Virus record (IMG/VR): IMGVR_UViG_3300025402_000703
Coordinates: 1 to 26,939 of that record
Strand: one strand, 5' to 3'
DNA from: a virus
DNA length: 26,939 nt
This document shows positions 3,318-26,939 of the stretch, in pieces (position 1 is the first letter of the stretch; each line of letters begins with the position of its first letter). A program made the position numbers and the translations under genes. Under the pieces are notes generated by a model. That model saw only the letters and a program-made list of their open reading frames with translations. It was not told the DNA's origin and did no database searches.

Positions 3318-3360
3318 ATACAATTTAAAACAATTACGTTTATTTTTAGAGTGAATGACA

Positions 3361-4980: not shown

Positions 4981-5019
4981 GTCATGCTCCAATAAATATC
5001 CTATATAGTAATGTAATAT

Positions 5020-5027: not shown

Positions 5028-5037
5028 GGAGATTGGC

Positions 5038-5238: not shown

Positions 5239-5245
5239 AAAGTTT

Positions 5246-5337
5246 GGAGAGTTGGCTGAGTGGCCGAAAGCACTCGTTTGCTAAATGAGCGAAGGTAGCG
5301 ATACCTTCCGTGGGTTCGACTCCCACACTCTCCGCCA
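5246..5337 (+). tRNA. tRNA-Ser (anticodon GCU), CCA encoded
   Basis: The acceptor is GGAGAGT 5246-5252 with ACTCTCC 5327-5333, discriminator G5334, CCA 5335-5337. The anticodon stem is CTCGT/ATGAG with loop TTGCTAA (GCU). There is a proper long variable arm (GAAGG/CCTTC) and the T-stem is GTGGG/CCCAC. This is a normal class II serine tRNA reading AGC/AGU. Confidence 0.93.
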
Positions 5338-5352
5338 TTATATAAATAGAAA

Positions 5353-6081
5353 ATGATAAAATATAAATCAGTATTCATCTCAGATATTCATTTAGGCACT
5401 AAAATGAGTCAGGCAGACAAACTGCTTGACTTCATGAAAACATTTGAGTGTGATAATCTATTTCTCGTTGGTGATATAATTGATGGTTGGGCATTGAACA
5501 CAGGGTTCTACTGGCCTCAAACACATAACGATGTTATACAAAAGATTTTAAGAAAAGCACGCAAGGGTACCAAGGTAGTCTACATTCCTGGCAACCACGA
5601 TGAATTTCTACGTTCATTTTGTGATACAGAATTTGGTAATTTAATTTTAACAAAACAATATATTCATACAGCGGCAGATGGAAAAAAGTATCTTCTGATG
5701 CATGGCGATGAGTTTGATGCTGTTGTATCTAAAATGAAATGGTTGTCTCATCTAGGAAGTTGGGCATATGATTTCAGTATCTTTTTTAATATATTTGTTG
5801 CTAAAATTAGAAACAAATTAGGTCTTCCATATTGGTCATTGAGTGCCTGGTTAAAGTATAAGGTGAAACGTGCAGTTAATTTCATTAGCGATTACGAAGA
5901 GAATCTCTCCAATTATGCCTTATCTAAGGGTGTACAAGGGATTGTTTGTGGTCATATCCACCATCCTAATATGCGAGATATCCAGGGAATTACATACCTT
6001 AATTGTGGGGATTGGGTCGAAACTTGCTCAGCAATTGTTGAACACCAAGACGGCACCATTGAAATAATTTATTGGAAATGA
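5353..6081 (+). CDS. LpxH-like calcineurin-type metallophosphoesterase
   Basis: 242 residues with the full metallophosphoesterase motif set: ISDIHLG (D11, H13), LVGDIIDGW, IPGNHDE, LMHGDEFD and CGHIHHP. The spacing and the W-x-L-S-A-W-L insert match the UDP-2,3-diacylglucosamine pyrophosphatase (LpxH) group, which acts at the inner membrane in lipid A synthesis. A related phospholipid or nucleotide-sugar phosphoesterase role is also possible. It starts 15 nt after tRNA-Ser with no clear Shine-Dalgarno, but a later start would remove D11. Together with galE, lipase and the downstream cassette it points to envelope lipid or glycan chemistry. Confidence 0.8.
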   Translation: MIKYKSVFISDIHLGTKMSQADKLLDFMKTFECDNLFLVGDIIDGWALNTGFYWPQTHNDVIQKILRKARKGTKVVYIPGNHDEFLRSFCDTEFGNLILTKQYIHTAADGKKYLLMHGDEFDAVVSKMKWLSHLGSWAYDFSIFFNIFVAKIRNKLGLPYWSLSAWLKYKVKRAVNFISDYEENLSNYALSKGVQGIVCGHIHHPNMRDIQGITYLNCGDWVETCSAIVEHQDGTIEIIYWK

Positions 6082-6085
6082 ACTG

Positions 6086-6113
6086 TTGACATTTATGTCA
6101 AACCGACTATAAT
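6086..6113 (+). promoter_or_regulatory. Near-consensus sigma70 promoter, leaderless arrangement
   Basis: TTGACA 6086-6091, a 16-nt spacer, then TATAAT 6108-6113; both hexamers are perfect. The ATG at 6121 is only 7 nt past the -10, so transcription would begin within a base or two of the start codon, leaving no room for a Shine-Dalgarno. It could drive the small gene at 6121 and the whole cassette behind it. Confidence 0.8.
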
Positions 6114-6120
6114 AGTCTCT

Positions 6121-6405
6121 ATGGAAACAAAATTTGAAGAAATAACTAAACGACTGTGGTTGACATATAAGTTGTACCACAGTGTTGCTGTAACCAATGG
6201 TACGGATAGCACTCAGTATGCTAACGAATCAACAGATAGCTTCTTACAATATCTTGAAGCAACAACAACAGGTGATATGGCATACAATTGGGATATTCCC
6301 TGTGCCATTGAAAACCAGATACGTATCCTTAAAGGGTTTATCGAGTGTTATGATAAGCCTATTAAGAGAGATGCCATTACTAGCAAGACAAGATGGACTG
6401 TCTAA
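6121..6405 (+). CDS. Small hypothetical protein (94 aa), probably leaderless mRNA
   Basis: I do not recognise this protein. It appears helical and soluble: an N-terminal segment (EEITKRLWLTYKLYHSVAV), a polar Thr/Ser/Asn-rich middle, then CAIENQIRILKGFIECYDKP. The start abuts a perfect sigma70 promoter, suggesting early and strong expression. It ends 6 nt before the SDR gene, so it probably leads the biosynthetic operon. Confidence 0.65.
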   Translation: METKFEEITKRLWLTYKLYHSVAVTNGTDSTQYANESTDSFLQYLEATTTGDMAYNWDIPCAIENQIRILKGFIECYDKPIKRDAITSKTRWTV

Positions 6406-6411
6406 TATATT

Positions 6412-7209
6412 ATGAAACACGTTCTCATCGTTGGCCAGAATAGCTTTATAGGATCAAAGCTATTTACCAGCTATTCTCATACACACATGGTTGATATGGT
6501 ACCTCATTCTATTTTGGATGAGGTATCTTTCATTAAGTATGACGTTGTGATAAACTGTTCTATAAATCCTTTGTACAGAAATAGTCCTTACTCTGAAGAC
6601 ATTGATATGGACTTAAAGGTGTCACGCAAATTTGACGGACACTATATCATGCTCAGTTCTCGTAAGGTTTACGGCAGCAATGATCAACTGTATACATATA
6701 CAGAACAGTCACCAATCAATCCAACCGATCATTATGGTTGGAACAAAGCAATGACAGAGCAAAAGATTGCTCAGGAGAAGTCAAGCTATACAATTTTCAG
6801 AGCTTCCAATATATACGGATTAGAATACCAAAGAAATTCTATCATGGGATTTCTTATGACGCAGCTAAAAGACAAAGGCAACATCGAGATAGACATTAGC
6901 CCGTACACTCAGAAAGATTACATTTACTTAGAGGATGCAATCAATTTGATAGTAAAGGCTGTTGAAAAACAATCACAAGGGGTGTACAATTTAAGCTCTA
7001 GTGAAGGTCAATTGTTTGGCAATATTGCTAATTGGTTATTGGAAGGATATGGAAGTGGTTCACTTCTATGTAAATCCAAACAGGTAAAAGATCAATTTAT
7101 TCTAGACAACACTAAACTGCTTGACTTTCTCGATATAGACTACCAATTTAATAACCAACAAATTATTACACTGCTTGGTAAACACTTGTCTAACTTAATT
7201 AATATTTGA
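6412..7209 (+). CDS. NAD-dependent epimerase/dehydratase (extended SDR)
   Basis: 265 residues. It has an N-terminal Rossmann start HVLIVGQNSFIGSKL (GxxxxIG), IMLSSRKVYG in the catalytic strand region, the YGWNKA active-site motif (YxxxK), then FRASNIYG and DYIYLEDAINLI, as in sugar-nucleotide epimerases, reductases and dehydratases. It probably modifies a nucleotide-linked sugar; the exact reaction cannot be assigned. It opens a run of co-directional genes to 14830 and overlaps nothing upstream (6-nt gap). Confidence 0.82.
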   Translation: MKHVLIVGQNSFIGSKLFTSYSHTHMVDMVPHSILDEVSFIKYDVVINCSINPLYRNSPYSEDIDMDLKVSRKFDGHYIMLSSRKVYGSNDQLYTYTEQSPINPTDHYGWNKAMTEQKIAQEKSSYTIFRASNIYGLEYQRNSIMGFLMTQLKDKGNIEIDISPYTQKDYIYLEDAINLIVKAVEKQSQGVYNLSSSEGQLFGNIANWLLEGYGSGSLLCKSKQVKDQFILDNTKLLDFLDIDYQFNNQQIITLLGKHLSNLINI

Positions 7210-7220
7210 TAGGATTGAAA

Positions 7221-7664
7221 ATGAAAATAGGATTTGTTTGCTCTTCATTTGATTTGTTTCATGCTGGTCATGTTACCATGCTTAAGATTGAAAAAGAGCT
7301 GTGTGATCACTTGAAGGTAGCTTTGCAAGTTGATCCTTCAGTAGATCGTCCTGGAATTAAAAACAAACCTATTCAATCAATCTACGAACGATATAGCCAG
7401 CTTGCTGCATGTAAATATGTCGATGAAATCTTGTTGTATGATACAGAAGAAGACTTACTTAATTTAATTAAGAGTCAGACCATGCACATTAGATTCCTCA
7501 GCGAGGAATACAAGAACCGTGACTTTACAGGTAAAGAATATTGCTTGAGCAATGGTATTGAGATACACTATCACCTTAGACAATACAACTACAGCTCTTC
7601 AGAACTTAGAAATCGTATCTATAACTTTGAATTAGAAAAGCAAAAAGAAAAGGTTAAAAAATGA
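7221..7664 (+). CDS. Cytidylyltransferase, glycerol-3-phosphate (TagD) type
   Basis: 148 residues from ATG 7221, preceded by TAGGA; an upstream in-frame TTG at 7206 is less likely. The nucleotide-binding motif FDLFHAGHVTML (HxGH, H14-H17) and the C-terminal YSSSELRNRI (the I/YSS/TxxxR motif) define the TagD/RfaE-type cytidylyltransferases, which join CTP to a phosphate substrate to give a CDP-linked product such as CDP-glycerol or CDP-ethanolamine. In this context it probably activates a head group or sugar for transfer. It overlaps the next gene by ATGA. Confidence 0.85.
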   Translation: MKIGFVCSSFDLFHAGHVTMLKIEKELCDHLKVALQVDPSVDRPGIKNKPIQSIYERYSQLAACKYVDEILLYDTEEDLLNLIKSQTMHIRFLSEEYKNRDFTGKEYCLSNGIEIHYHLRQYNYSSSELRNRIYNFELEKQKEKVKK

Positions 7665-8413
7665 AGAGTTTAATCTTTTGCCCAGTTGGTATTCCAGTTC
7701 ATACCTACCCTGCTCTGTATGATGAAAATAATCATTGGAGATTTACTAAGCCTGAAAGATTGTATGACACAGTAGTCTATCAGTATAAGGATGACTTTGT
7801 TCCAGAGCCAGGAACATACGACTTTATTGAAAAGGCAAAAGGATATAAGTGGGAGATTGCAAAGCATTTCCTTGATACGTTTGATTATAGTGGGTATGAA
7901 TATATTGGGTTCTTTGATGATGATGTGATTACAGACATCGAAAGTGTTAACCATGCAATTACATTGGCAACAGAAAAAAACATTAAACTGTTTCAGCTAT
8001 CACTAGCAGATGGTTCAGAGCGATCCCATCATATCCTATTTCAAGATAAATCTTTAAAGTACAGCATCACAAGTTTTAATGAAGGAATGGGATGTTTTAT
8101 TCATGTCTCTCTTATTCCTATATTCTTGGAGTTCTGCAAATTTCACCAACCTAAGTCTGGTTGTGGATTAGATTTAATCATGGCTCATATCACCAAAGAA
8201 CAAGCAATGGTCATCCATGAAAGATCTATGTTCCATCCACCTCGTGAATTTTATGGATATGTTTCCAAGTACTATGATCAATCTGCTGCAGACTCAGAAA
8301 TGTACCATATTCTTGGCAATGTATATCCTCAATTTATGAGACATAAATATGGTCAGGATACAGGTCCATTTAACATCCCGCATACTGTTCATGCATTAGT
8401 TTTTAATAATTGA
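7661..8413 (+). CDS. Putative glycosyltransferase (GT-A like, DUF707-type)
   Basis: 250 residues. It opens with KSLIFCPVGIPV and has the acidic nucleotide-sugar/metal motif YIGFFDDDVI at about residue 85, followed by a long C-terminal region rich in H and Y (GCGLDLIMAHI, FHPPREFYGYV). The pattern resembles DUF707-like proteins, thought to be GT-A glycosyltransferases. Donor and acceptor are unknown. Start and upstream stop overlap as ATGA, implying translational coupling to the cytidylyltransferase. Confidence 0.6.
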   Translation: MKSLIFCPVGIPVHTYPALYDENNHWRFTKPERLYDTVVYQYKDDFVPEPGTYDFIEKAKGYKWEIAKHFLDTFDYSGYEYIGFFDDDVITDIESVNHAITLATEKNIKLFQLSLADGSERSHHILFQDKSLKYSITSFNEGMGCFIHVSLIPIFLEFCKFHQPKSGCGLDLIMAHITKEQAMVIHERSMFHPPREFYGYVSKYYDQSAADSEMYHILGNVYPQFMRHKYGQDTGPFNIPHTVHALVFNN

Positions 8414-8429
8414 TATTGGAGTTTATATT

Positions 8430-9143
8430 ATGGGTATTGATGTCTCAGCAATGGCATTTCTAATGATGAATAAAAAGTATGTCAAGGGTGACGTACTGCA
8501 GCTTGGTCGCCAAGGAATGCACCTTGGATGGAATCAAGTGGATGCAAACAATGGCAGAAAAGTATTTGAAGCCATGGATACGGAAAATAAATTCCAAGAT
8601 ATCTTTTCAACCAATCCTCATGCAGATGGCTTCTTTACTTACCTTGGTGCCGATAAAGTTGATAGCATGGACTATTCAGACTTTGAGCAAGCATCGATTG
8701 TTCACGATCTAAACAATCCAGTTCCAAAAGAGCTAGAAAATAAGTTTGACTTTATCTATGATGGTGGTACAATAGAACACATATATGATGTTAAAACTGT
8801 TATGGAAAACATCAAAAAGATGTTGAAGCTTAATGGTATATTTGCAGGTCTTGCTGTTGGTAACAATAGTCTAGGTCATGGATTCTATCAATTTAGTCCA
8901 GAACTATATCGTACTGTGTTCTCAGAAGAAGCAGGATACCAGATACACTCGTTGCAGTTAATTGAGAATACAGACATTCCAAACTTTATTGACCTTCCTA
9001 CTCCTCCTAAAGGTGAGCGACAGGAAATGAGAACTAAGGATGTTCCAATCTACGTTTGTTTTATTATCGAAAAGATTAAAGAAGTGTCAGACACGAAGAA
9101 CTTCCAGCAAAGTGACTATCTGAAGAATTGGGGTGAACTATGA
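8430..9143 (+). CDS. Class I SAM-dependent methyltransferase-like protein
   Basis: 237 residues. GDVLQLGRQGMHLG matches the first Rossmann strand, SIVHDLNNP the second acidic strand, and KFDFIYDGGTIEHIYDV then MKKxLKxNGIF-like KKMLKLNGIFAGL are typical of class I methyltransferases where an E-H pair follows the fourth strand. The SAM-binding glycine motif is degenerate, so activity is uncertain. It probably acts on a sugar or peptide made by this cassette. Shine-Dalgarno TTGGAG precedes it; its stop overlaps the next start as ATGA. Confidence 0.7.
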   Translation: MGIDVSAMAFLMMNKKYVKGDVLQLGRQGMHLGWNQVDANNGRKVFEAMDTENKFQDIFSTNPHADGFFTYLGADKVDSMDYSDFEQASIVHDLNNPVPKELENKFDFIYDGGTIEHIYDVKTVMENIKKMLKLNGIFAGLAVGNNSLGHGFYQFSPELYRTVFSEEAGYQIHSLQLIENTDIPNFIDLPTPPKGERQEMRTKDVPIYVCFIIEKIKEVSDTKNFQQSDYLKNWGEL

Positions 9144-9964
9144 AAGATTTAGTTATTGGTGCCGTTACCAATCTTTCCTGGGATCAGTGTAAGTATTGGG
9201 TAAACTCGCTTAATCAATCTGGATTCAGTGGTGATAAAATCATTTGCATGTTTGGTTCACAACCTGATTTAATTTCAAAGTTTAAAGATAATGGTTTTGA
9301 AGTATATGTGGCAGATAGCTTGCAACCTCATCAACACATATGCTCCTCTCGTTTTTATTTTTACTATAGCATTTTAAATGAATCGCATAGACAGTATAAC
9401 AATGTTATTGCTACGGATGTTTCTGATGTAGTCTTTCAAAAGAATCCTTCTGACTATTTTGATCCTGATCAATATCCTGCACTTTTTGCTTCATCTGAAA
9501 ACATTAAGTATATTGATGAGCCATGGGGTGCTAATAATGTTCGACTAGCGTTTGGTGACTTGGCATATTTGAATGTCAGGCATAACATTATTAACAACGC
9601 TGGTGTTATCGCAGGATCACATATTTACATTAAAGATTTATTCTTTGCTATTAGTATAATGTGTGATGGTAGACAACAATATGTTCCTGGTGGTGGTGCT
9701 CCAGATCAGGCTGCATACAATCTAATGTTGACACAAAAAGCCTATAGTGAAATTACCAACTTTGTTGGTCACGATCAAGGATGGGCTTGTCAAGTTGGTA
9801 CTACTGCAGACCCACATAAACCTTTTGGTCAATTAAATATTGAACCTAATCCAATTATGGATAATGGTATTGTTAAGACATCTGATGGTGTTGAATATTA
9901 TATTGTTCATCAGTATAATAGAAATCCACAATGGAAGCAAGTTATAGAAAACAAGTTTAAATAA
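9140..9964 (+). CDS. Putative glycosyltransferase (GT-A fold, DxxD)
   Basis: 274 residues. The strand VIATDVSDVVFQKNP matches the acidic divalent-metal motif of GT-A nucleotide-diphospho-sugar transferases followed by the usual F..dP segment. A later NNAGVIAGS and GGGAPDQAAYN pair is typical of glycosyltransferases in which a D-Q motif follows the acceptor loop. Substrates are unknown. It is coupled to the methyltransferase by ATGA. The next 62 nt hold only a weak hairpin (9968-9984) and no convincing promoter. Confidence 0.7.
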   Translation: MKDLVIGAVTNLSWDQCKYWVNSLNQSGFSGDKIICMFGSQPDLISKFKDNGFEVYVADSLQPHQHICSSRFYFYYSILNESHRQYNNVIATDVSDVVFQKNPSDYFDPDQYPALFASSENIKYIDEPWGANNVRLAFGDLAYLNVRHNIINNAGVIAGSHIYIKDLFFAISIMCDGRQQYVPGGGAPDQAAYNLMLTQKAYSEITNFVGHDQGWACQVGTTADPHKPFGQLNIEPNPIMDNGIVKTSDGVEYYIVHQYNRNPQWKQVIENKFK

Positions 9965-10026
9965 TAACCTATATACAACATAGGCTGCAACGTTTTTAAT
10001 GTGGTATAGATTAATAGAGGATTAAA

Positions 10027-11112
10027 ATGGCTAATGTAGTTCTAGATTCAAATAATAAAGTACAAGGTCGCAGTTACACTAGCAACCATGTTAAACTCCT
10101 CAAGCACATGGATCGTCTTTCGATCATTCAAGAAGGTGGTCGGCCTAAGCCTATCATGTTCCACATGTCGCCCTGTAACCCATGCAACTTGACTTGTTCC
10201 TTCTGTTGCTTTGCCAATCGTTCAATGAAGGAAATGCTTACAGTTGAACAGATGAAGTCTGCTGTTGACCAGTTTGCAGCTCTTGGTGTGCTTGGTATGG
10301 AATTTACTGGTGGTGGTGAACCTACTCTACATCCTAAGCTAGATGAAATGATTGAGTACATTCATGCAAAGGGAATTAAGATTGGTATTGTCACTAATGG
10401 TTCTCGTTTGAAAAAGATCAAGAATTGGCATTTAGTTTCTTGGGTTCGTCTAGGAATGTATGGCTTCGATGAAGGTTATGACTATGACCTTTCAGTATTT
10501 GATGGTCTTGATAACATCGAGATCTCTGCTGCATATGTTTGGGATGGTGCTCCAGAAACCTCAACCAATCCAAACGTCACAGGTAAGTGGACAGATCCTA
10601 CCAAGAAGATTCTTTCTAAGGCACACTACAAGGAAGAGAACTTCTTCCGCATGCTTGATTGGGTTCAGGAAAAGAAGATCCCTACTCGTATTGCTTTTAA
10701 TGCTATTAAGGATCCTACAGAGACTGCAAAAGACATCGAGAAGATTCGTGCTCTTCTTGCTACCTACGAAGAGAAGAATGGTGCATTGACTCATGCATTC
10801 CTTTCTGACTTCAACTTCAAAGGCACTCGTCGTAATGATCATTGCTACATGCACATGGTTAAGCCTTGCGTGTTCACTGATGGTAATGTCTATGTGTGTC
10901 CTTCTGCAGAACTTGCTCCAGAAAATGAATACCATGTAAATGATAAGTTTAAGGTCTCAGACATTGCAGGTATTACTGACTTCTACAACTCACAAGTTGG
11001 TGGTGCTGGTGTATCTCGTCGCCACCATGATTGCTCATTCTGTAAGTATGCCTACCAGAATGAATTGATCGATGATGTTGTTACTGAAACTCGCCACAAC
11101 GAATTCGCGTAA
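10027..11112 (+). CDS. Radical SAM enzyme with C-terminal auxiliary cysteine cluster
   Basis: 361 residues. The radical SAM motif CNLTCSFC (C53, C57, C60) would bind the [4Fe-4S] cluster that cleaves SAM; MEFTGGGEPTLHP is the GGxxP SAM-binding motif and GIVTNGS follows. The C-terminal part has C273, C281, C291, C336 and C339 in a SPASM-like arrangement (PCVFTDGNVYVCPSAEL, DCSFCKYAYQ), so a second cluster is likely. The substrate is unknown; SPASM-type enzymes modify peptides, sugars or alcohols. Codon use (CGT, TTC, AAG) is more biased than in neighbours, suggesting high expression. It sits inside the glycan cassette. Confidence 0.88.
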   Translation: MANVVLDSNNKVQGRSYTSNHVKLLKHMDRLSIIQEGGRPKPIMFHMSPCNPCNLTCSFCCFANRSMKEMLTVEQMKSAVDQFAALGVLGMEFTGGGEPTLHPKLDEMIEYIHAKGIKIGIVTNGSRLKKIKNWHLVSWVRLGMYGFDEGYDYDLSVFDGLDNIEISAAYVWDGAPETSTNPNVTGKWTDPTKKILSKAHYKEENFFRMLDWVQEKKIPTRIAFNAIKDPTETAKDIEKIRALLATYEEKNGALTHAFLSDFNFKGTRRNDHCYMHMVKPCVFTDGNVYVCPSAELAPENEYHVNDKFKVSDIAGITDFYNSQVGGAGVSRRHHDCSFCKYAYQNELIDDVVTETRHNEFA

Positions 11113-11127
11113 AAGGAAAATTATATT

Positions 11128-11739
11128 ATGAACGTATTTGATGAAAAGTATTACGAAGACGGTATCAACAACCATGTTAGTGGTTATGAGAATTACCGTT
11201 GGATGCCTGAACGTACAATTCGTGAAGCTACTTCTATTATCGATAAGATTGATTTTGAAACCGTGTTGGATTTTGGATGTGCAAAAGGATTCATGGTCTA
11301 TGCAATGAGTCTCCTTGGTAAGAATGCATCAGGTGTAGATATCTCAGAGTATGCTATCAGTGCAGCTATGCCTCAGGTTAAAGATCAGCTCACATTAATT
11401 AATACTGCAGAGGATATTGCTGGCCATTACAATTTGCTTATGGCTAAGGATGTTCTTGAGCATGTACCTTATAATATTCTTCCAAGCATGTTAAAGACAT
11501 TCCGTCAGAAGTGTGATAAAATTCTTGTTGCTGTTCCTCTTGGAGAAAATGGTAAGTTCCGTATCCGTCAGTATGAGATGGATGTTACTCATATCATTCG
11601 TGAACCTGAAGAGTTTTGGTTGAAGGCTCTTGGTGATGCAGGATTCAAGATTAAGTTCTTTGATTACCAGATGGGGCATCTAAAGAGTAACTGGACCGAG
11701 TCACATGAATTTGGAAATGCCTTTATTGTTGGTGAGTGA
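11128..11739 (+). CDS. Class I SAM-dependent methyltransferase
   Basis: 203 residues. The SAM-binding motif VLDFGCAKGFMVYAM (DxGxxxG-like), ASGVDISEYAI (acidic end of strand 2), LLMAKDVLEHVPY (strand 4 with the E-H pair) and KILVAVPLGENGKF fit the methyltransferase 11/23 group. The biased codon use matches the radical SAM gene 15 nt upstream, suggesting the two proteins act together, for instance methylation of the radical product. The substrate is unknown. Confidence 0.85.
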   Translation: MNVFDEKYYEDGINNHVSGYENYRWMPERTIREATSIIDKIDFETVLDFGCAKGFMVYAMSLLGKNASGVDISEYAISAAMPQVKDQLTLINTAEDIAGHYNLLMAKDVLEHVPYNILPSMLKTFRQKCDKILVAVPLGENGKFRIRQYEMDVTHIIREPEEFWLKALGDAGFKIKFFDYQMGHLKSNWTESHEFGNAFIVGE

Positions 11740-11758
11740 TGGATCATTTCTATAGAAA

Positions 11759-11766
11759 TATAAATA
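11759..11766 (+). promoter_or_regulatory. T4-type late promoter TATAAATA
   Basis: Exact TATAAATA in the 54-nt gap before the next methyltransferase, with TAAGGAGT as Shine-Dalgarno about 20 nt downstream. In T4 this element is read by the gp55 sigma with the sliding clamp and starts transcription about 6 nt past the last A. Confidence 0.65.
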
Positions 11767-11793
11767 AAAAATAGTTACAATAAGGAGTCTATT

Positions 11794-12363
11794 ATGGATC
11801 ATTTTGCCGGTCAATTGAATGGGTATTGCAATTACTCTTCAGTATATAACTTTGTTATTCCTCGTCTTCCTACCGATGGTAAGATGGTAGAGGTTGGTGT
11901 GTTGTTTGGACAAGGTGTCTGCTATGCAGCAGTAGAAATTATTAATCACGAAAAGAATGTCAATATTACCGCTGTAGATACTTGGACTGGTACACCAGAC
12001 AACTCTACAATTATGACACTCTACAATGATAATGATGTGTATAACCAATTTCTAACAAACATTACACCTGTTCAAGATCACATTACTGTTGTTAAATTAG
12101 ATAGTGTATCAGCAGCTGCAACATTTGCGGATGGTAGCGTAGACTTTGTATACCTCGATGCAGATACAAGCCACGATGCTGTAAAAGCTAACATCGATGC
12201 GTGGCTTCCAAAGGTTAAGTCTGGTGGATTTATTGGTGGTCATAATTATGACCTCGATACAGTAAAGCAAGCTGTTACTGAAGCATTCCCAGAAGGCACA
12301 CCTAACTTCCTTACCTACAATGGTACAGGCTGGGGCGATAGCTGGTTAGTCACAAAGGCATAA
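11794..12363 (+). CDS. Class I SAM-dependent methyltransferase (Methyltransf_24 type)
   Basis: 189 residues. MVEVGVLFGQGVCYAAV is the SAM-binding loop of the Methyltransf_24/CmcI-like group, ITAVDTWTGTP the second strand, and FVYLDADTSHDAVKANIDAW plus VKSGGFIGGHNYD match this family's metal or acceptor region (D-x-x-H, G-x-H-x-Y-D). It may O-methylate a sugar or acid. It has its own late promoter and a strong Shine-Dalgarno (TAAGGAG), so it can be expressed apart from the upstream genes. Confidence 0.85.
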   Translation: MDHFAGQLNGYCNYSSVYNFVIPRLPTDGKMVEVGVLFGQGVCYAAVEIINHEKNVNITAVDTWTGTPDNSTIMTLYNDNDVYNQFLTNITPVQDHITVVKLDSVSAAATFADGSVDFVYLDADTSHDAVKANIDAWLPKVKSGGFIGGHNYDLDTVKQAVTEAFPEGTPNFLTYNGTGWGDSWLVTKA

Positions 12364-12378
12364 TATTTAAAACATATT

Positions 12379-13125
12379 ATGATTAGTGAAATAATAATTA
12401 AAAAACTCGATGGCTTTTCAGGCAGTCGAGTTTTTTTAATGAAGAATAAAGATCGGTTGTTTATCCGTAAGATTGGTAATGTTGAACGCAATTACGAACA
12501 ACTACCAGTCTTGTCGAAGCTTGACATAAATTGTCCTGCTGTGTTGTCAAAAAATGGTGATGTGTTGGATATGGAATATATCCATGGGCTCGATATGATT
12601 ACATACCTCAAACACAACAGCGAGAAACCATTGATTGACTTCTTAATGAAGTCTCTGGATACTTTAAGCAAAGGATCACAAAGCAAGAATTACTTTGATG
12701 ATTATGTCAGCAAGATTACTAATGTAGATTTTAAACATTTTAAATTTACAAAGATTCAGTTATTGGATAGTCTTCCTGCTTGTACACAACAATCAAACTA
12801 TCACGGTGACATGACACTAGAGAACATTATATTCTCTGAAGGGAAGTTTTTCTTTATTGATCCAGTTTCAATTGAATATGATTCCTTTATTTTTGACATT
12901 GCAAAATTAAGACAAGATTTGGAATGCAAATGGTTCCTAAGAAAGTCAAAAGCAAGACTAGACACTAAGTTATATAATATACAGAATGCTTTGTTGGATA
13001 ATTATCCAGAAGCAAGATGTGATAGTTTTTTAATTTTAATGTTATTGAGAGTATTCAACCATAGCATTGAAGATAGTTTTGAACAAAGATTTTTAATATC
13101 GGAGATTAATAAATTATGGAAGTGA
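12379..13125 (+). CDS. APH/choline kinase-type phosphotransferase
   Basis: 248 residues. It has the small-molecule kinase catalytic loop SNYHGDMTLENIIF (H142-G-D144...N149) and the metal-binding FFFIDPVS (D161), both intact. The N-lobe is short (FIRKIG for the ATP-binding lysine region, MEYIHG at the hinge). Family members phosphorylate choline, aminoglycosides, sugars or similar alcohols. The next gene, overlapping by 10 nt, is a nucleotidyltransferase, so kinase plus NTP-transferase probably make an activated NDP-linked product from a free substrate. Confidence 0.82.
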   Translation: MISEIIIKKLDGFSGSRVFLMKNKDRLFIRKIGNVERNYEQLPVLSKLDINCPAVLSKNGDVLDMEYIHGLDMITYLKHNSEKPLIDFLMKSLDTLSKGSQSKNYFDDYVSKITNVDFKHFKFTKIQLLDSLPACTQQSNYHGDMTLENIIFSEGKFFFIDPVSIEYDSFIFDIAKLRQDLECKWFLRKSKARLDTKLYNIQNALLDNYPEARCDSFLILMLLRVFNHSIEDSFEQRFLISEINKLWK

Positions 13126-14147
13126 TTGTACCTGCTGCTGGTCTTTCTACTAGATTTCCAAATATGAGACCAAAGTACACTCTTACAGGGTATGATGGTA
13201 GAACAATGTTGTATAATGCATTGAGGCCGTTTATTGATAATACAGAACATCATATATCAATTGGTGTATTGGCTAATCACATTGATGAGTATGACGTTGT
13301 CAAGTTTATTAGAAATGATTTGGGTTGGAATAACATCGACATTGCCGTAATAAAACAACCTACAAGAGGTCCTGCCGAAACAGTATTCAATATTATTAAT
13401 AACATTGGAATTAATCCCAACAGTAGTATTCTTATTAAAGACTGCGATAGTTTCTTCGAACATGATGACACAGAAGGTAACTATGTATGTACATCCAGCA
13501 TTTCAGACCATAGTGTTTTGAGGAAGGTATACAATAAGAGCTTTGTTGTTGCCAACGATCAAGATATCATCGTTGATATTATAGAAAAAGATATTGTGTC
13601 AGATAGCTTTTGTGTTGGTGGTTATAAGTTTGAGACGGCTAAGTTATTTTGTGATTCCTACACACAGATTAAGGATAGTGTTGAAGAGCCTTTTGTCTCT
13701 CATGTAATCCAGCATGCTCTTTCCAAAGGAAACATTTTTACCAAAAAAGCTGTAACTAACTATACTGATGTCGGTACACTAGAAGAGTGGAATGCATACA
13801 ACGATAGGCCTGTTATCTTCTGTGACATAGATGGAACAATTGTCAAAGCTAATCCTGCATTCATGGATCAATCGCCAGCTGTACCTTTGAGTAACAATAT
13901 TAAAAGGTTAATCCAATTACAAACCAAAGGTGCTCAAATAATATTCACTACGGCAAGAAAGCAATCAAACTTTGATAGCACAAAGATGATGTTAGAAGAT
14001 TTAGGGTTTATTAATTTCAGCTTGATATGTGGATTACAAAACTCTCGTAGGATCCTTATCAACGACTATAATAATGCTAATCCATTTCCAAGAGCCACAG
14101 CAATAAACCTTAAAAGAGATACGGATAATCTGGAAGACTTCCTATGA
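13116..14147 (+). CDS. Nucleotidyltransferase-HAD phosphatase fusion
   Basis: 343 residues with two enzymes in one chain. Residues 1 to about 225 are a sugar-phosphate-type nucleotidyltransferase: VIVPAAGLSTRFPNMRPKY (signature loop with the RPK lysine) and LIKDCDSFF (D109/D111 metal site). Residues from about 232 on are a HAD hydrolase: VIFCDIDGTIVK (D237, D239), FTTARK (motif II), and SRRILINDYNNANPFP (motif IV aspartate), close to capsular-polysaccharide HAD phosphatases. The fusion suggests activation and dephosphorylation in one route. It overlaps both neighbours (10 nt and ATGA). Confidence 0.82.
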   Translation: MEVIVPAAGLSTRFPNMRPKYTLTGYDGRTMLYNALRPFIDNTEHHISIGVLANHIDEYDVVKFIRNDLGWNNIDIAVIKQPTRGPAETVFNIINNIGINPNSSILIKDCDSFFEHDDTEGNYVCTSSISDHSVLRKVYNKSFVVANDQDIIVDIIEKDIVSDSFCVGGYKFETAKLFCDSYTQIKDSVEEPFVSHVIQHALSKGNIFTKKAVTNYTDVGTLEEWNAYNDRPVIFCDIDGTIVKANPAFMDQSPAVPLSNNIKRLIQLQTKGAQIIFTTARKQSNFDSTKMMLEDLGFINFSLICGLQNSRRILINDYNNANPFPRATAINLKRDTDNLEDFL

Positions 14148-14830
14148 AAGTAGCTATTGTTATAACAGGTCACATGAGGTGTTGGAAACAGCTAGCACCA
14201 CACTTCAAAGAGAAATACCTTGATGTATACAACCCTGACATTTACATCAGTACGTGGAATACAGAGGGTTGGTGGCAGTGGGGTGATTATTTTAAACAAT
14301 CACCTTTGGTCAATGCAGATGAGTTGAGAGAGTTCTACAAACCTAAAAGATTGGTAGTCGAGCCATTTGATCCATTGTTTAACTATCTATTTACAGAAAA
14401 AGCTACCAAGTATACTAATGCAATTGGCCATCCTAAAAATATGATATCGATGTTTTATAAGTGGATGAGTGGAATTAATCTACTGGAAGACCAATATGAT
14501 CTTGTAATTCGTATGAGACCTGATGTACAATATTTAAATACTTTGCCTGACTTTGATCCTTCTAACTTCTATGTAGCAGAGATACCAGGACTAAAGCAAG
14601 GTGGTTTGGGTGATATGTTCCACGCTGGCAACCAAACAGATATGTCTTCGTTTTGTTCTATCTTTGATCACTTGGATCCTCTATATCAACAAACAGATAG
14701 CTTTTGTACACATCTTTTATCTCAACAACATGCAAAGAATTTAAATTTAAAGTTGATTGAATTCTCAAACGAATATATACTACATAATACTCCTTTTGGT
14801 AGTCATCAGGACGTATTGAAATTCCTATAG
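14144..14830 (+). CDS. Putative glycosyltransferase-like protein (WavE-like)
   Basis: 228 residues. VAIVITGHMRCW at the start, DIYISTWNTEGWW, then LLEDQYDLVIRMRPDVQYL and a C-terminal NEYILHNTPFGS. The pattern is found in phage and bacterial proteins near lipopolysaccharide or capsule genes, where the R-x-R-x-D strand replaces the classical DxD. The reaction is not known. It ends the tight operon; the next gene starts after 11 nt with its own Shine-Dalgarno (AGGAGA) and a signal peptide. Confidence 0.6.
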   Translation: MKVAIVITGHMRCWKQLAPHFKEKYLDVYNPDIYISTWNTEGWWQWGDYFKQSPLVNADELREFYKPKRLVVEPFDPLFNYLFTEKATKYTNAIGHPKNMISMFYKWMSGINLLEDQYDLVIRMRPDVQYLNTLPDFDPSNFYVAEIPGLKQGGLGDMFHAGNQTDMSSFCSIFDHLDPLYQQTDSFCTHLLSQQHAKNLNLKLIEFSNEYILHNTPFGSHQDVLKFL

Positions 14831-14841: not shown

Positions 14842-15645
14842 ATGAAGAAATTTGTTATGTTATTGTCGTTGCTATTTGTCTCTACTGTATCTTATGCAGC
14901 AGATCAAATTGCACCACAACCAAAGGCTTCTTGCTCTGCACAGATTCCTTTTGGAGAACCTTCTGAGAAGGCAGGCTTGCCTGTTGTATGTCGTAAGGCT
15001 TATATCCTTGAATCTGATGTCACTGCAAAGATTCCTGTATGGGTTGCATGGACTCTTACTCCAGATCATGCTATTGGTTGTGTAGCACGTACTAATGCTT
15101 TTGCTACAGACCAGTCACTTCCTGCAACAGGTCGTGCAACACCACAAGACTATGCAGCTTCGGGTTATGATCAGGGACATCTTGCAAACGATGCAGATAT
15201 GTCGTGGGATGATCAAGTCGAACACGAATCTTTCTATATGTCTAACATGAGCCCTCAGCTTCCTGCTGTTAATCGTGGTACATGGAAGAACTTAGAATCA
15301 GCTGCACGTGCATGGGTATATCAGACCAAACATCCTTTTACAGAGTATGCTGGTAACATCTGGTCTGCTTCAAGCAAGACAATTGGTGCAGATAAAGTTG
15401 TTATTCCTGATGCATTATATAAAATTGTTGTTGATGATGTAAGCAAGAAATCATATGCTTTTATTATGAACAATACTCCTGGTTTGGATTCAGACTTTAC
15501 CAAATATCAGGTTACAGTATCAGACGTTGAAAAGGCTACAGGCGTTACTTTTCCTGTTCCTGATTCAAAGACTGTAAAAAACCCTCTTATCGTAGCAGAT
15601 CTCAAGACTCTTGCTGCTGATAAGAAGAAGCAATGTAAAGAATAA
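14842..15645 (+). CDS. Secreted DNA/RNA non-specific endonuclease (NUC family)
   Basis: 267 residues with a signal peptide (MKKFVMLLSLLFVSTVSYA, cleavage before A20), so it acts in the periplasm or outside. The beta-beta-alpha-Me active site is SGYDQGHLANDADM (H113 as general base), followed by YMSNMSPQLPAVNRGTWKNLE, which supplies the Mg-binding Asn. The usual DRGH is DQGH here. Cysteines at 31, 50, 80 and the C-terminus fit disulfides. Codon use is strongly biased, suggesting high expression. Roles could be host DNA salvage after lysis or destruction of competing DNA. Confidence 0.88.
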   Translation: MKKFVMLLSLLFVSTVSYAADQIAPQPKASCSAQIPFGEPSEKAGLPVVCRKAYILESDVTAKIPVWVAWTLTPDHAIGCVARTNAFATDQSLPATGRATPQDYAASGYDQGHLANDADMSWDDQVEHESFYMSNMSPQLPAVNRGTWKNLESAARAWVYQTKHPFTEYAGNIWSASSKTIGADKVVIPDALYKIVVDDVSKKSYAFIMNNTPGLDSDFTKYQVTVSDVEKATGVTFPVPDSKTVKNPLIVADLKTLAADKKKQCKE

Positions 15646-22789: not shown

Positions 22790-23464
22790 ATGAAGAAGCT
22801 ACTTATTACTGTTGCCGCTGTTATGCTTGCAACTTCCGCATATGCTACTGATCTTCCTAAGAAGAAGAAGGCTCCAGCTGCACCTGTACCTGTTGCTGCT
22901 ACCGAGACTGTTGTCCCAGCTGCACCAGCAAGCACAGATAGCTTGACTGTTGCTTATGGACAGGACACCGCTGTTGGTGATCTTGGTTCCAAGACTGATG
23001 ACATCTATCAGTTGACCTATTCCCACAAGCTAGGCAATGGCTTTAGCGTTGGTGGTATGGCTCAGACATCCCAGGCTCCTGATTCTGCTTTGAAGCAGAA
23101 CCTTGAAGCACAGGTTGGTTATGCACTTCCTGCTTTTGCTGGCGTTACTGTTTCTGGTAAGGTTGGCGTTGGTGAGAAGTTCAACACCACCAACTTCAGC
23201 TATTACGCATTGTATGGTGCAGCTGATGTTAAGTTGACTGATAAGTTGACTTGGAATGCTGTTTCCTACCGTTACCGTTCTGCATTTGATACTGATGCCA
23301 ATGGATATCAGTCTCATCAGATTGGTACTGGTGTGACGTATGATCTTGCTTCTAACTACGCTGTTAGCGCAAAGATCTATCGTAACTACGATGCATCAGG
23401 CAGCTTCACTAATGCAGCTGCAACTGGCGATCAGTTCATGCTTGGCTTGACTGCTAAGTTCTGA
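22790..23464 (+). CDS. Phage-encoded outer-membrane beta-barrel protein
   Basis: 224 residues. A signal peptide (MKKLLITVAAVMLATSAYA) is followed by a Lys stretch and a Pro/Ala-rich linker (DLPKKKKAPAAPVPVAATE), then alternating strands (LTVAYGQDTAVGDLG, DDIYQLTYSHKLGNGFSVGG, YALYGAADVKLTDKLTWNAV, QIGTGVTYDLASNYAVSAKI) ending in an aromatic LGLTAKF, the expected C-terminal Phe of outer-membrane proteins. The linker resembles alphaproteobacterial porins. Codon use is strongly biased toward high expression. It could replace or block a receptor porin or alter permeability. A Shine-Dalgarno (GAGGAGT) and terminator frame it. Confidence 0.82.
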   Translation: MKKLLITVAAVMLATSAYATDLPKKKKAPAAPVPVAATETVVPAAPASTDSLTVAYGQDTAVGDLGSKTDDIYQLTYSHKLGNGFSVGGMAQTSQAPDSALKQNLEAQVGYALPAFAGVTVSGKVGVGEKFNTTNFSYYALYGAADVKLTDKLTWNAVSYRYRSAFDTDANGYQSHQIGTGVTYDLASNYAVSAKIYRNYDASGSFTNAAATGDQFMLGLTAKF

Positions 23465-23491: not shown

Positions 23492-23520
23492 AAAGGGCAC
23501 CTTCAGGGTGCCCTTTTTTT
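23492..23520 (+). terminator. Intrinsic terminator after the outer-membrane protein gene
   Basis: AAAGGGCACC 23492-23501 with GGTGCCCTTT 23507-23516 and loop TTCAG, then an uninterrupted T-run. A smaller hairpin (CCTGAT/ATCAGG, 23474-23488) precedes it. The last T is also the first base of a late promoter. Confidence 0.93.
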
Positions 23521-23527
23521 ATAAATA
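23520..23527 (+). promoter_or_regulatory. T4-type late promoter TATAAATA
   Basis: Exact TATAAATA starting in the T-run of the preceding terminator; the gene start is 42 nt further on, with Shine-Dalgarno GAAAGGA. Back-to-back placement isolates the gene from upstream transcription. Confidence 0.75.
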
Positions 23528-23569: not shown

Positions 23570-24466
23570 ATGACTGATAGAATAAATTTTTATGCTGAAA
23601 TGATCTCCAAGCAAATTTCTAAGGAAATTGAAGAGGGTGTTGAACAGGTAGATGAAAAATCTATGGGTCAAGGCTTAGGTCATTCTATTAAGAAACCTTT
23701 AGGTTCTAAGGATCAAAGTGGTACTGCTACACACGTGTCAGCAGATCATACAATTTCAACTGTTGGTCAAAAAGATAATACTACACCCGTAAAGGCTAAG
23801 CCAACAGCGCCAAAGGGTGAATTTGGTCCACGTTCTGATAAGCCAGACAATGTATCAACTCCTCCATTTAGAGGACCACGTTCTGATAAGCCTGGTATAT
23901 CAAAAATGTATAAAATGAAAGAAGAAGTTGAACAGTTTGAGGAAGCATCAAAATCTTCACCTACGAAAAAAACACCAACCTTAAGTTCAGCTAAAATTGC
24001 AAAGATGGAACGTGATGAAAGACGTGATGCATCTAAGCAAGCATTTGGTAATATGTTTGGTGGCGGCAATCCTGTTGGTAATTTGCGTGTTAAAAAAGAA
24101 GATGTTGAATTCTCAGAAGCAGAATTGAATGCCATTGAGGATATCCTCAATGAGGGAGCAACAAGAAATCCATATCTCAATAAAAAACACAAAGAAGACC
24201 ACAGCGTTGATAAAAAAATAGAGACTCTTGAACCAAAAACACACGCCGGTGTTAAGGTTACTGGAGATGCATATTCACACACAAGTGAGCTGTCTGATGG
24301 TGGTCACATAATTGGTAAAGTTGATGGGATTCCTTATCATCTAGCAGTTAGAGATGCAGGTTATGAACACAAACTCCATTCTGCTTCACCTCTCTCACCA
24401 GCTCATAAAAAAGCATTGACTAGATTTATTAATTCGCATAATTACGGCGTAGATGGTAAATTATAA
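23570..24466 (+). CDS. Putative internal head protein A (298 aa)
   Basis: Late-promoter gene. The N-terminus INFYAEMISKQISKEIEE is a charged helix like a prohead targeting leader. The middle is low-complexity and Lys/Pro/Ser-rich with a repeated GPRSDKP block at about 85 and 104. After ILNEGATRN (L-N-E before G, a match to the T4 prohead-protease L/I-x-E site) comes a C-terminal domain of about 70 residues: HTSELSDGGHIIGKVDGIPYHLAV, then LSPAHKKALTRFI. The same order (HTS, G-x-V-x-G, LSP) is seen in the protein at 24811, suggesting a shared mature domain. Function after injection is unknown. Confidence 0.6.
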   Translation: MTDRINFYAEMISKQISKEIEEGVEQVDEKSMGQGLGHSIKKPLGSKDQSGTATHVSADHTISTVGQKDNTTPVKAKPTAPKGEFGPRSDKPDNVSTPPFRGPRSDKPGISKMYKMKEEVEQFEEASKSSPTKKTPTLSSAKIAKMERDERRDASKQAFGNMFGGGNPVGNLRVKKEDVEFSEAELNAIEDILNEGATRNPYLNKKHKEDHSVDKKIETLEPKTHAGVKVTGDAYSHTSELSDGGHIIGKVDGIPYHLAVRDAGYEHKLHSASPLSPAHKKALTRFINSHNYGVDGKL

Positions 24467-24489
24467 CAATTAGCGATAAAAAATATTTG

Positions 24490-24518
24490 TTGACATAATT
24501 AAGCCTCCATGCTATTAT
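24490..24518 (+). promoter_or_regulatory. Sigma70 promoter nested in a terminator hairpin (copy 3)
   Basis: TTGACA 24490-24495, a 17-nt spacer, TATTAT 24513-24518, followed by the shared leader AATAATATAAGCAATGGAG. The 5' arm of the terminator stem lies in the spacer and the -10 is in the hairpin loop. Confidence 0.8.
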
Positions 24519-24547
24519 AATAATATAAGCAATGGAGGCTTTTTTTA
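24501..24547 (+). terminator. Terminator hairpin enclosing a promoter
   Basis: AAGCCTCCAT 24501-24510 pairs perfectly with ATGGAGGCTT 24532-24541; GCT/AGC can extend it past one bulged A; a run of seven T ends it. It should stop transcripts coming from the gene at 23570. RNA begun at the nested promoter has no 5' arm and should pass. The 3' arm also carries the Shine-Dalgarno GGAGG of the next gene. Confidence 0.72.
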
Positions 24548-24768
24548 TGTCTAATCAACGTGCAGGCAAGACTCATTCAGCAGCTTTGGTGGATGGTGGT
24601 GATAAGGTAACGCTACAGGCTTTGATTAACTTTTGCAAAGAAGCTAGGGGCGATCTAATCAAAGAAGGTGAAGAAGAATCTGCTATTCGGTTTGAGATTC
24701 TAGAAGAATGGCTTCGTAATGACTTTCGTGGATCGTTTAAATATCATTCAAGAATGATTGGTTTATAA
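24547..24768 (+). CDS. Small hypothetical protein (73 aa)
   Basis: MSNQRAGKTHSAALVDGGDK, then ALINFCKEARGDLIKEGEEE, an amphipathic helix pair, and FEILEEWLRNDFRG. Not recognised. I choose ATG 24547, 8 nt after GGAGG, matching the other shared-leader genes; an in-frame ATG at 24532 would place the Shine-Dalgarno inside the gene. Its stop codon overlaps a late promoter, so early and late units meet here. Confidence 0.68.
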   Translation: MSNQRAGKTHSAALVDGGDKVTLQALINFCKEARGDLIKEGEEESAIRFEILEEWLRNDFRGSFKYHSRMIGL

Positions 24769-24771
24769 ATA
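24764..24771 (+). promoter_or_regulatory. T4-type late promoter TATAAATA
   Basis: Exact TATAAATA overlapping the TAA stop of the preceding gene, 39 nt before the next ATG, with the Shine-Dalgarno AAAGGA downstream. Confidence 0.72.
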
Positions 24772-24810
24772 GATTATTAAATAATATTTTTAACACCTAA
24801 AGGAAACACA

Positions 24811-25275
24811 ATGAGTAATGATAATTTAGTAAACAAGTACGCTAACTTCATTAGAGGTCAGATCCAAGAAGAAATTAAAAAATGTGTGATTATAACAGAA
24901 GCCAAGGCACGCAAGTCTGGCGAAACATATGGCAATGATGATCAACACCAAGCTTTGAATAATCACAACACAAAAGATGCCAATGGCAATAAATCAACCA
25001 TCACCCATACTTCTTTCGAAGGTGGTGATGAAGGGTTTGTGCATGGTAGAGTAAATGGTAAGAAATTTGTATTTCATTATGAACCAGATCACAGCAATGT
25101 GGATCGTGCTAAAGGTGCCTATCATGCTACTGTAAAAGGTATTGTAAGAGATTATGGTAATAAGCCTAACGAGCATGGTTATGGTGGTGGTATGGAGCAT
25201 CTTTCCCCAGAAGAGCAGCACACAGTCGCTCATCATGTTGCTTCAACACTTCACGAGCTTACACCAGAAAAATAA
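24811..25275 (+). CDS. Putative internal head protein B (154 aa)
   Basis: The N-terminus NKYANFIRGQIQEEIKKC resembles the T4 capsid-targeting leader (F-I near L/I-x-E), and VIITEAKARKSG has I-T-E before A, a good prohead-protease site at about residue 30. The presumed mature part holds ITHTSFEGGDEGFVHGRVNG, KKFVFHYEPDHS and GMEHLSPEEQHTVAHHVAS, in the same order as the C-terminal domain of the protein at 23570. It is histidine-rich and soluble. It has its own late promoter and a terminator after it. No activity can be assigned. Confidence 0.62.
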   Translation: MSNDNLVNKYANFIRGQIQEEIKKCVIITEAKARKSGETYGNDDQHQALNNHNTKDANGNKSTITHTSFEGGDEGFVHGRVNGKKFVFHYEPDHSNVDRAKGAYHATVKGIVRDYGNKPNEHGYGGGMEHLSPEEQHTVAHHVASTLHELTPEK

Positions 25276-25294
25276 GTTATTAGGATTTGTTGTT

Positions 25295-25322
25295 AAAGAG
25301 GGCCATGTGGCCCTCTTTTTTT
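25295..25322 (+). terminator. Intrinsic terminator
   Basis: AAAGAGGGCC pairs with GGCCCTCTTT around ATGT, with a T-run after it. A textbook terminator that separates internal head protein B from the next unit. The following 60 nt hold TATATAATA (about 25358), which may be a variant promoter, and the Shine-Dalgarno TTGGAG. Confidence 0.93.
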
Positions 25323-25388
25323 GTTTGAACTTATGGTAGTATTTTTAATTACCTAAATATATAATACAAATTATTTTGGAGTATCTCT

Positions 25389-26339
25389 ATGTTAACATTT
25401 TATTCTTTTATTGCCGAATTGGCAGGACCTCAACCTATGCAATCTTCCGGTCCTATGGGTGATAGACATGCTGGTAAGTATCTTAGTTCAGATAAGATTG
25501 GCAGCACTACATATACAACCACTGGTGGCAAACAAGTGAGAGTACATAGAGTTTACAAACAAGAAGGTGGCAAACATGATGGTAAATGGTTTGCTCATGT
25601 CTCACATGTTGAGAATCCTGATAAAGAAGAGCATATTCCTATTAGTAGAATATTAAAGCCAACACATAAAGATATTCGTAAAAAAGAAACAAGTTTTGTG
25701 ACGGATTTACACAATCAAATTACTGGTAGCAAGAGGCCCGTCATGATGTATGATCGTCATGGCAACAAACATCGCATCGTTGGTGCACAACAAGTATCTG
25801 GCAATCCAAAAGCTGATATCGCTTTAGTGAATGATAAGGGTGAGCATGTCATACATATTTCTCACAAGGAAAGCGAAGAAAGTCATCAAGGGTATGGTGG
25901 CCTCAATGGCAAAAAAAACCAATCACATCCTGTGATGAAAGAATTTGCAGAGAAAATTAAGAAAAAGATTCCAGACGAGCACATGGCTTTGAAGGGCAAA
26001 TCGAGAACAATGCCTCTAGATCATACAAAGCCAGAACATGATGATATGATTAAAAAAGCATTGTTTGGCCAACACCACGACTCTGATAAATCTGGACCAG
26101 AAAATGTTGATGTTATTTCTCATGGCAAAATGAATTTAAAATTTAATAATCGTGGTGTTGCATCCATTAAGTCTGATAAAGATGTCACTCACAAAAACTA
26201 CAAAGATCAAAAGTATGAAATAGTAGCCAAGCATGCTACAGATAGAACAATTCCAGGCACCAAGATTGGTGGTATTGTTGGCATTACGCATGCTGGACAC
26301 CGTAAAGGCAGAGATGTTAAGCCACTGGAAGGGGAATAA
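25389..26339 (+). CDS. Putative capsid-targeted nuclease-like protein (316 aa)
   Basis: The first residues MLTFYSFIAELAG closely match the T4 internal-protein leader (MKTYQEFIAEA), with cleavage expected after E10 (I-A-E). The central block GNKHRIVGAQQVSGNPKADIALVNDKGEHVIHISHK is a pattern I associate with T4-like phage proteins that look like PD-(D/E)xK endonucleases (D in KAD, then S-x-K at the end of the next strand); the nuclease assignment is tentative. The C-terminal part ends in a basic GITHAGHRKGRDVK. The start of the next gene is 1 nt after its stop. If injected, it could act on host DNA or defence systems. Confidence 0.65.
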   Translation: MLTFYSFIAELAGPQPMQSSGPMGDRHAGKYLSSDKIGSTTYTTTGGKQVRVHRVYKQEGGKHDGKWFAHVSHVENPDKEEHIPISRILKPTHKDIRKKETSFVTDLHNQITGSKRPVMMYDRHGNKHRIVGAQQVSGNPKADIALVNDKGEHVIHISHKESEESHQGYGGLNGKKNQSHPVMKEFAEKIKKKIPDEHMALKGKSRTMPLDHTKPEHDDMIKKALFGQHHDSDKSGPENVDVISHGKMNLKFNNRGVASIKSDKDVTHKNYKDQKYEIVAKHATDRTIPGTKIGGIVGITHAGHRKGRDVKPLEGE

Positions 26340-26340
26340 G

Positions 26341-26939
26341 ATGTATACATTTAAATCATTTATATCTGAGTCAAACTACATCATAGAAGCAACTTCTGTG
26401 GATGATGAAGCTCTAGGACATTTAACACACGTTAAGGATCTGCCACACGAAGATGCCAGACATTCTAAAATGGCTGTAGATCTCCTTCGTGATTTTCATA
26501 ATAAAAGACAAGGTAAGCCTAGCTCAATTGGTGCTTCATTAAAGACTGATGGTGGTGCTTCTGTTCACGTAATTCACGATGAACATGGCGTAGGCGTTTC
26601 TGATAAGCATAGAATGGCTCGTGGTGTTGTTGCTAGAACACCAGAAGAGGTTGATAAACATTTTGGGCATGCACCTGAATATGCTGAATCTTTAAAGCAC
26701 GTTTTGAAACATGCTCATGAGTTTGTAAACAAAGGTCATCATATTCAAGGCGATCTTCTTCATACTCCAAACGAAAAGCCAACTGAACATGGCGATAAGA
26801 TCTCCACAACACCAAATAGACTTACCTATCACATGAAAACTAAAGCTCCTCTTGGCTTGGCTGTTCACACAGAGGTTAAAGGTGGTGTTGCTCGTGCAGT
26901 TTCTAAAAAAGCATTGAAGAAGACACCTCATGTTTTTGT
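26341..26939 (+). CDS. DUF6267-like KxDG protein with capsid-targeting leader (partial)
   Basis: Open to the right edge (199 codons seen). MYTFKSFISESNY is a second T4-type targeting leader (I-S-E, cut after E10). IGASLKTDGGASV (K68-x-D-G) has the nucleotidyl-lysine signature of ligases and capping enzymes; HIQGDLLHT (136-142) and LGLAVHTEVKG (171-181) fit the following motifs. The order SxKxDG, QGDLxxT, N-x-L-x-Y, VHTxxxG matches what I recall of the phage family DUF6267. It may seal, cap or adenylylate a nucleic acid or protein. Coupled to the preceding gene by a 1-nt gap. Confidence 0.7.
   Translation, partial: MYTFKSFISESNYIIEATSVDDEALGHLTHVKDLPHEDARHSKMAVDLLRDFHNKRQGKPSSIGASLKTDGGASVHVIHDEHGVGVSDKHRMARGVVARTPEEVDKHFGHAPEYAESLKHVLKHAHEFVNKGHHIQGDLLHTPNEKPTEHGDKISTTPNRLTYHMKTKAPLGLAVHTEVKGGVARAVSKKALKKTPHVF

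Follow-up and report, generated by a model that had tools for sequence, protein, structure and literature searches.

A candidate cargo island with T4-type capsid-targeting leaders in a freshwater T4-like phage

The window analysed here is the entire virus record IMGVR_UViG_3300025402_000703 (26,939 bp). Its final 3.4 kb carries four genes for candidate capsid-packaged proteins of T4 type and a conserved open reading frame (ORF) of 78 amino acids (aa). A sequence-only reading of the record had proposed four packaged and injected proteins at this place, two of them with leaders very like the capsid-targeting sequence (CTS) of T4 internal proteins. All four ORFs are present and the leaders of 25389 and 26341 (genes are named by their first position) read as claimed. 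The elements are listed below; a down arrow indicates a predicted cleavage position.

23520 to 23527, plus strand: late-promoter octamer TATAAATA, T4-type, about 50 bp upstream of 23570.
23570 to 24466, plus strand: 298-aa protein with class-2 leader MTDRINFYAEMISKQISKEIEE↓G; candidate packaged protein, moderate support.
24532 to 24768, plus strand: 78-aa ORF without a leader; conserved, and in relatives it shows where the variable island lies.
24764 to 24771, plus strand: late-promoter octamer TATAAATA, T4-type, about 45 to 50 bp upstream of 24811.
24811 to 25275, plus strand: 154-aa protein with class-2 leader MSNDNLVNKYANFIRGQIQEEIKKCVIITE↓A, similar to that of T4 IPI (aromatic core, then a downstream cut); candidate packaged protein, moderate support.
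25389 to 26339, plus strand: 316-aa basic protein, isoelectric point (pI) 9.6, with CTS MLTFYSFIAE↓L; candidate packaged protein, strong support.
26341 to 26939, plus strand, open at the window end: DUF6267 protein with CTS MYTFKSFISE↓SNYIIE↓A; candidate packaged protein, strong support.
L001, 2854 to 3480, just past the window end: fifth leader gene, MKTFKSFISE↓A followed by a HIGH-type cytidylyltransferase/NMNAT-like domain.

L001 is an IMG/VR contig that is identical to the window over the proteins compared and extends its 3′ end. The 26341 gene is completed there (L001:1721-2857; full length 378 aa) and the next gene encodes the leader-bearing HIGH-type nucleotidyltransferase, so the cluster is bigger than the four genes first described. 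Behind its leader the 23570 protein has a low-complexity linker, ILNE↓GA at residue 195 and, at the C-terminus, a domain of roughly 100 aa. Searches of Pfam and PHROG with the 23570 and 24811 proteins gave no family match. The 78-aa ORF shows 62 to 77% identity across 15 loci. At least two late promoters had been predicted, and octamers do precede 23570 and 24811, but the count of such octamers over the whole window (6 against 3.0 expected; 9/100 shuffles) is not significant alone. All six lie on the coding strand.

In the T4 record, internal proteins (IPs) IPII and IPIII start with MKTYQEFIAE↓A, IPI reads MKTFKEF...STITE↓A, and the gp23 site is FGSFLTE↓A. Mutational data on IPIII assign targeting to residues 4 and 7 and processing to residues 8 and 10, and ten residues are sufficient (PMC9026906). 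Both 25389 and 26341 retain F4, F7, I8 and E10. Their leaders end in I/L-x-E sites, IAE↓L in 25389 and ISE↓S in 26341, with a second site (IIE↓A) in the latter. In 33 distinct DUF6267 leaders from viral contigs, F4, F/Y7, I/L8, E10 and A/S11 are found 33 times out of 33 and positions 2, 3, 5, 6 and 9 are variable; the leaders were located via the protein body and one of the six search peptides included the leader, which makes this evidence strong but not fully independent. The DUF6267 proteins of the window and of contig L002 are about 98 to 99% identical in the body and differ at the start. The window protein has an extra MYTFKSFISES ahead of NYIIEATS, where L002 has MKTFLNYITEATS, and it thereby gains two cut sites in tandem.

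The leader was then scanned over the collection as the codon pattern MKTFxxFIxE, with the same residues at shifted spacing as the control. The pattern was found in at least 120 stretches and the control in 13 in the entire collection. Among the matches listed (131), 122 stay open for 60 codons or more, and all but two of them (120) lie within 45 codons of an ORF start. Start anchoring and the spacing control exclude chance for the match of 25389 and 26341 to the T4 leader. The bodies of the listed proteins cluster into 92 groups, 78 with the strict leader, and 88 representatives can be aligned only over M1, F4 and E10. In T4-like phages from aquatic habitats, some 80 protein families that are otherwise unrelated bear the leader. 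Residue 11 (P1′) was not part of the selection pattern. It is Ala in 28 of the 78 strict-leader families (7% expected, P = 1.5e-13) and Ala, Ser or Gly in 40 (P = 2e-8), and the Ala bias is the preference expected for a prohead-protease cut. Leader proteins are Lys-rich and basic (median pI 9.4). They are also poor in Cys (L081-L200; 0.23% vs 0.99%, P = 2e-17), which may have to do with their being stored in the head or ejected from it.

Virion proteomics had been named as the check on packaging, and published data on other phages bear on it: leader-bearing proteins are found in S-CREM2, S-SM1 and S-SCSM1 virions. In S-CREM2, 52 of 219 proteins were detected in the virion (PMC10665884). Its genome (OR473000) encodes exactly three strict-leader ORFs, an S-adenosylmethionine (SAM) hydrolase (MKDFDSFLEE), an APH kinase (VKRFDAFLTE, GTG start) and a cytidylyltransferase (MKNFSSFLTE↓A), and the published virion proteome includes all three (P = 0.013; 0.003 when only non-structural genes are counted). 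Near-matches are found in three other S-CREM2 virion proteins: Cas9-like ORF12 (internal LRFASFMAE↓A), ORF13 (MKDLHSFLTE) and ORF136 (MQTFSMFFSE). The S-CREM2 authors left it undecided whether the enzymes are genuinely carried or represent carry-over. The virion-detected GC190 protein of S-SM1 (PMC3037559) starts with MKKFSAFLNE↓A; its homologue in S-PM2 has no leader and was not among the detected virion proteins. The virion-detected NMNAT of S-SCSM1 (PMC9602691) starts with MKSFLQFLKE↓A. We consider it well supported that T4-like phages of aquatic habitats package their leader proteins. A DUF6267 protein was suspected among the S-SCSM1 virion proteins adjoining NMNAT; this was rejected as none of them is DUF6267.

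A homologue of the prohead protease gp21, which the sequence-only reading had advised to look for, is found in close relatives though not in the window fragment. It is encoded (PF03420) in three of 12 relatives (G001, G002 and G007), beside gp22-like scaffold genes, and also by methylophage Melnitz. Among leader-bearing contigs 7 of 18 encode gp21, compared with none of the 13 shorter contigs used as controls (Fisher P = 0.025). The leader, gp21 in relatives, the Ala/Ser bias at P1′ and the published virion detection of homologous or analogous leader-bearing enzymes support capsid targeting and cleavage of the 25389 and 26341 proteins. We strongly infer that these two proteins are packaged by a CTS-type mechanism, with a probability of roughly 0.8. 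Their injection is proposed by analogy with T4, and their cleavage, ejection and function are likewise proposals.

The 23570 and 24811 proteins had been said to carry sites similar to those of 25389 and 26341, which holds only in another form. Neither has the class-1 leader described above, and bare [IL]xE sites are at the chance level in 23570 (2 vs 2.4 expected, for which reason ILNE↓GA was rejected as significant alone) and weakly enriched in 24811 (3 vs 1.0). The two proteins do share an IPI-like second leader. Their N-terminus, M..D[RK]I..YA.[FM]I..Q, is common to five proteins of relatives (L002:1644, L027:8064, L027:8474, L215:1396 and L221:2708). In this class-2 leader the [FY]xx[FM][IL] core is kept, with no E two residues later, and the aromatic core is shifted, to Y8xxM11 in 23570 and Y10xxF13 in 24811. 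An [IL]xE site follows at residues 18 to 32 in six of the seven class-2 proteins vs 18% of background ORFs; the predicted cut sites are IITE↓A in 24811 and IEE↓G in 23570. The layout of T4 IPI is alike (F4, F7, cut at E19). Scanning the collection for the exact second leader yielded 13 stretches, of which few are real; in that form it is not widespread. By analogy with IPI, the class-2 N-terminus is probably a second CTS type, and on balance we favour CTS-type packaging of 24811 and 23570.

The strongest competing explanation is that only 25389, 26341 and the downstream HIGH-type enzyme are packaged, with 23570 and 24811 as late proteins of an ordinary kind that share their N-terminus through homology within one fast-evolving family. 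The class-2 bodies do show some mutual similarity, which together with the site counts and the rarity of the second leader makes this explanation possible, at appreciably less than even odds. However, conservation is much higher at the N-terminus than in the bodies, the aromatic core and the downstream IxE are kept as in IPI, and the class-2 genes lie in the same island as the class-1 cargo.

Packaging of all the island's leader proteins would work as follows. The region would serve as the cargo island of the phage, a freshwater T4-like one with relatives among the Kyanoviridae (for example methylophage Melnitz and cyanophages). The 25389, 26341 and HIGH-type proteins would be made late in infection with a 10-residue leader, in which F4 and F/Y7, by analogy with T4, would bind the prohead core. 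A gp21-type protease would cut after I/L-x-E10 and free the enzyme inside the head. The freed enzyme would be packaged along with the DNA and reach the next host by ejection. The 24811 and 23570 proteins probably take the same route, with an aromatic core and a cut site further downstream. The nucleotidyltransferases would most likely act in the first minutes, before phage gene expression, and their targets would most likely be host nucleic acids or the pools of nucleotides and nicotinamide adenine dinucleotide (NAD). This action in the host is proposed tentatively, at slightly under even odds.

Several points weigh against packaging of the island's proteins. The gp21 (S77 protease) search of the window was negative, the window being a 27-kb fragment, and the gp21 co-occurrence comparison is confounded by the shorter control contigs. 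The whole-genome leader test covers one of the three mass spectrometry datasets, with only three leader genes there. Mass spectrometry of CsCl-purified virions may include contaminants, as the S-CREM2 and S-SCSM1 authors state. The residue after E10 in 25389 is Leu and not a small residue. The class-2 leader is defined from seven proteins, which are partly related. The marine cyanophage copies of DUF6267 that were checked (S-SM1 and S-PM2) are without a leader as annotated, whereas the freshwater group, with its 33 distinct leaders, always has it.

It is unlikely that the leader serves instead as a scaffold tag or an anchor to the prohead core, its bearers being head-assembly factors that work within the prohead and never enter the host. 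The targeting residues of the leader do bind the core in T4, the T4 core proteins gp22, gp67 and gp68 are rich in I/LxE sites, and some leader proteins are small and of low complexity. But T4 IPs bearing such leaders are injected (PMC12373910). Elsewhere the leader is found with ADP-ribosyltransferase (PF03496, PF18760), adenylate kinase, HD, HicA, Zeta-like and HNH domains and, in S-CREM2, on a SAM lyase, a cargo that makes little sense as scaffold; a GNAT domain is also found. It is very improbable that the leader directs late proteins to a different destination (the host membrane, the baseplate or another phage complex) and that the detected proteins are abundant contaminants of the CsCl preparations, since the leader fits the experimentally defined T4 CTS at exactly its functional positions, the Ala bias at P1′ points to the prohead protease, and S-CREM2 leader proteins were detected without exception in a proteome that recovered less than a quarter of the gene products.

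Among the packaged candidates the cargo is best defined for 26341, which belongs to DUF6267 (PF19782; 35.6 bits vs the Pfam cut-off of 27, E = 8.7e-9) and phrog_455. In 33 sequences down to 23% identity the invariant residues are K68, D70 and G71 (KxDG), E346, G347 and V349 (EGxV), and K359. These motifs are those of covalent nucleotidyltransferases and polynucleotide ligases (motif I KxDG, motif IV EGxV and the motif V lysine), in agreement with the earlier call of a KxDG nucleotidyltransferase-like protein. The structure model has a predicted local distance difference test (pLDDT) score of 87 with residues 1 to 26 disordered. The top 20 Protein Data Bank (PDB) matches in Foldseek are almost all DNA/RNA ligases (best E 0.008, low TM-scores). 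PDB sequence searches with DUF6267 and the HIGH-type enzyme gave nothing meaningful. DUF6267 is most likely a covalent nucleotidyltransferase, as its motifs suggest and the modelled fold less firmly indicates. Since phrog_455 covers a DUF6267 part and a cytidyltransferase part, it ties DUF6267 to its downstream neighbour. This fifth gene matches PF01467 and phrog_3041 (E = 5e-40) and has homologues in 470 phage records, mostly cyanophages. The 25389 protein is related to phrog_13937 and contains a motif, PKAD...ISHK, that recalls PD-(D/E)XK folds. It has no Pfam match above the cut-off, DNA and protein searches of annotated phages gave no match, and its AlphaFold model (pLDDT 43) is too poor for a fold search; the nuclease-like cargo suggested earlier is a possibility. 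The cargo may plausibly counter host defences or take over nucleotide/NAD pools, and for the window proteins the injected toolkit of the sequence-only reading is a hypothesis.

The T4-type CTS is already known, and the window proteins would be additional members of this kind with new cargo. In common with T4 IPI, IPII and IPIII they have a leader of 10 residues, aromatic at positions 4 and 7, with I/L8, E10 and an I/LxE↓A cut site, and the basic, variable bodies behind it. The T4 IPs are gp21-processed, injected and active against GmrSD. The two sets differ in host lineage and in cargo, the T4 proteins being small inhibitors and those of the island including 378-aa ligase-like and HIGH-type nucleotidyltransferases; there is no sequence similarity beyond the leader, and the window has a second leader type. 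The NMNAT/cytidylyltransferase of cyanophage virions (T4-GC190; S-SM1, S-SCSM1 and S-CREM2 ORF154) is homologous to the product of the gene that immediately follows DUF6267 in L001, has the same leader and is found in purified virions. The papers on it either leave its presence in virions unexplained or put it down to possible contamination, and in the passages covered the leader is not mentioned. T4 Alt is a capsid-packaged ADP-ribosyltransferase (ART) that is injected. This enzyme cargo is cleaved by gp21 (PMC9026906). ART-domain proteins with the leader occur among the relatives (the two Pfam families given above); the window's own proteins showed no ART domain.

We are inclined to think that an N-terminal head-loading code across aquatic T4-like phages exports a large and fast-exchanged enzyme arsenal with the DNA (nucleotidyltransferases, SAM lyases, kinases, ADP-ribosyltransferases and HicA/Zeta-like proteins), much as secretion signals do for effectors, and that this lineage also evolved a second leader (YAxFIxxQ) which separates targeting from cleavage. 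If so, the leader alone would predict the injected proteome of uncultured phages. The packaged and injected proteins of T4 are a famous but small set; should dozens of enzyme families bear the leader in phages that abound in fresh and marine waters, what uncultured phages inject could be read from sequence. A capsid-targeting tag would also be a simple answer to why NMNAT-like enzymes, SAM hydrolase and kinases recur in cyanophage virions. For the study of T4-type protein packaging, many natural cargo/leader pairs would be available.

The gene adjoining the island (22790-23464) encodes an outer-membrane beta-barrel-like protein with a signal peptide and is conserved in relatives; a search for its bacterial relatives, for host assignment, found none. 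In several relatives the slot before the 78-aa ORF, occupied by 23570 in the window, holds proteins that by eye are PstS-like phosphate-binding proteins (L010:1240, L014:1928, L019:1389 and L020:3128). Further upstream, 14842-15645 encodes a secreted-looking protein with a signal peptide and DQGHLANDADMSW, by eye similar to DNA/RNA non-specific endonucleases. A small protein encoded after it, at 15724, has a signal peptide and by eye is transglycosylase-like. Positions 3355-14830 hold a long series of genes that by eye are sugar-nucleotide, glycosyltransferase, radical-SAM and methyltransferase-like. Eight tRNA genes are found across the window.

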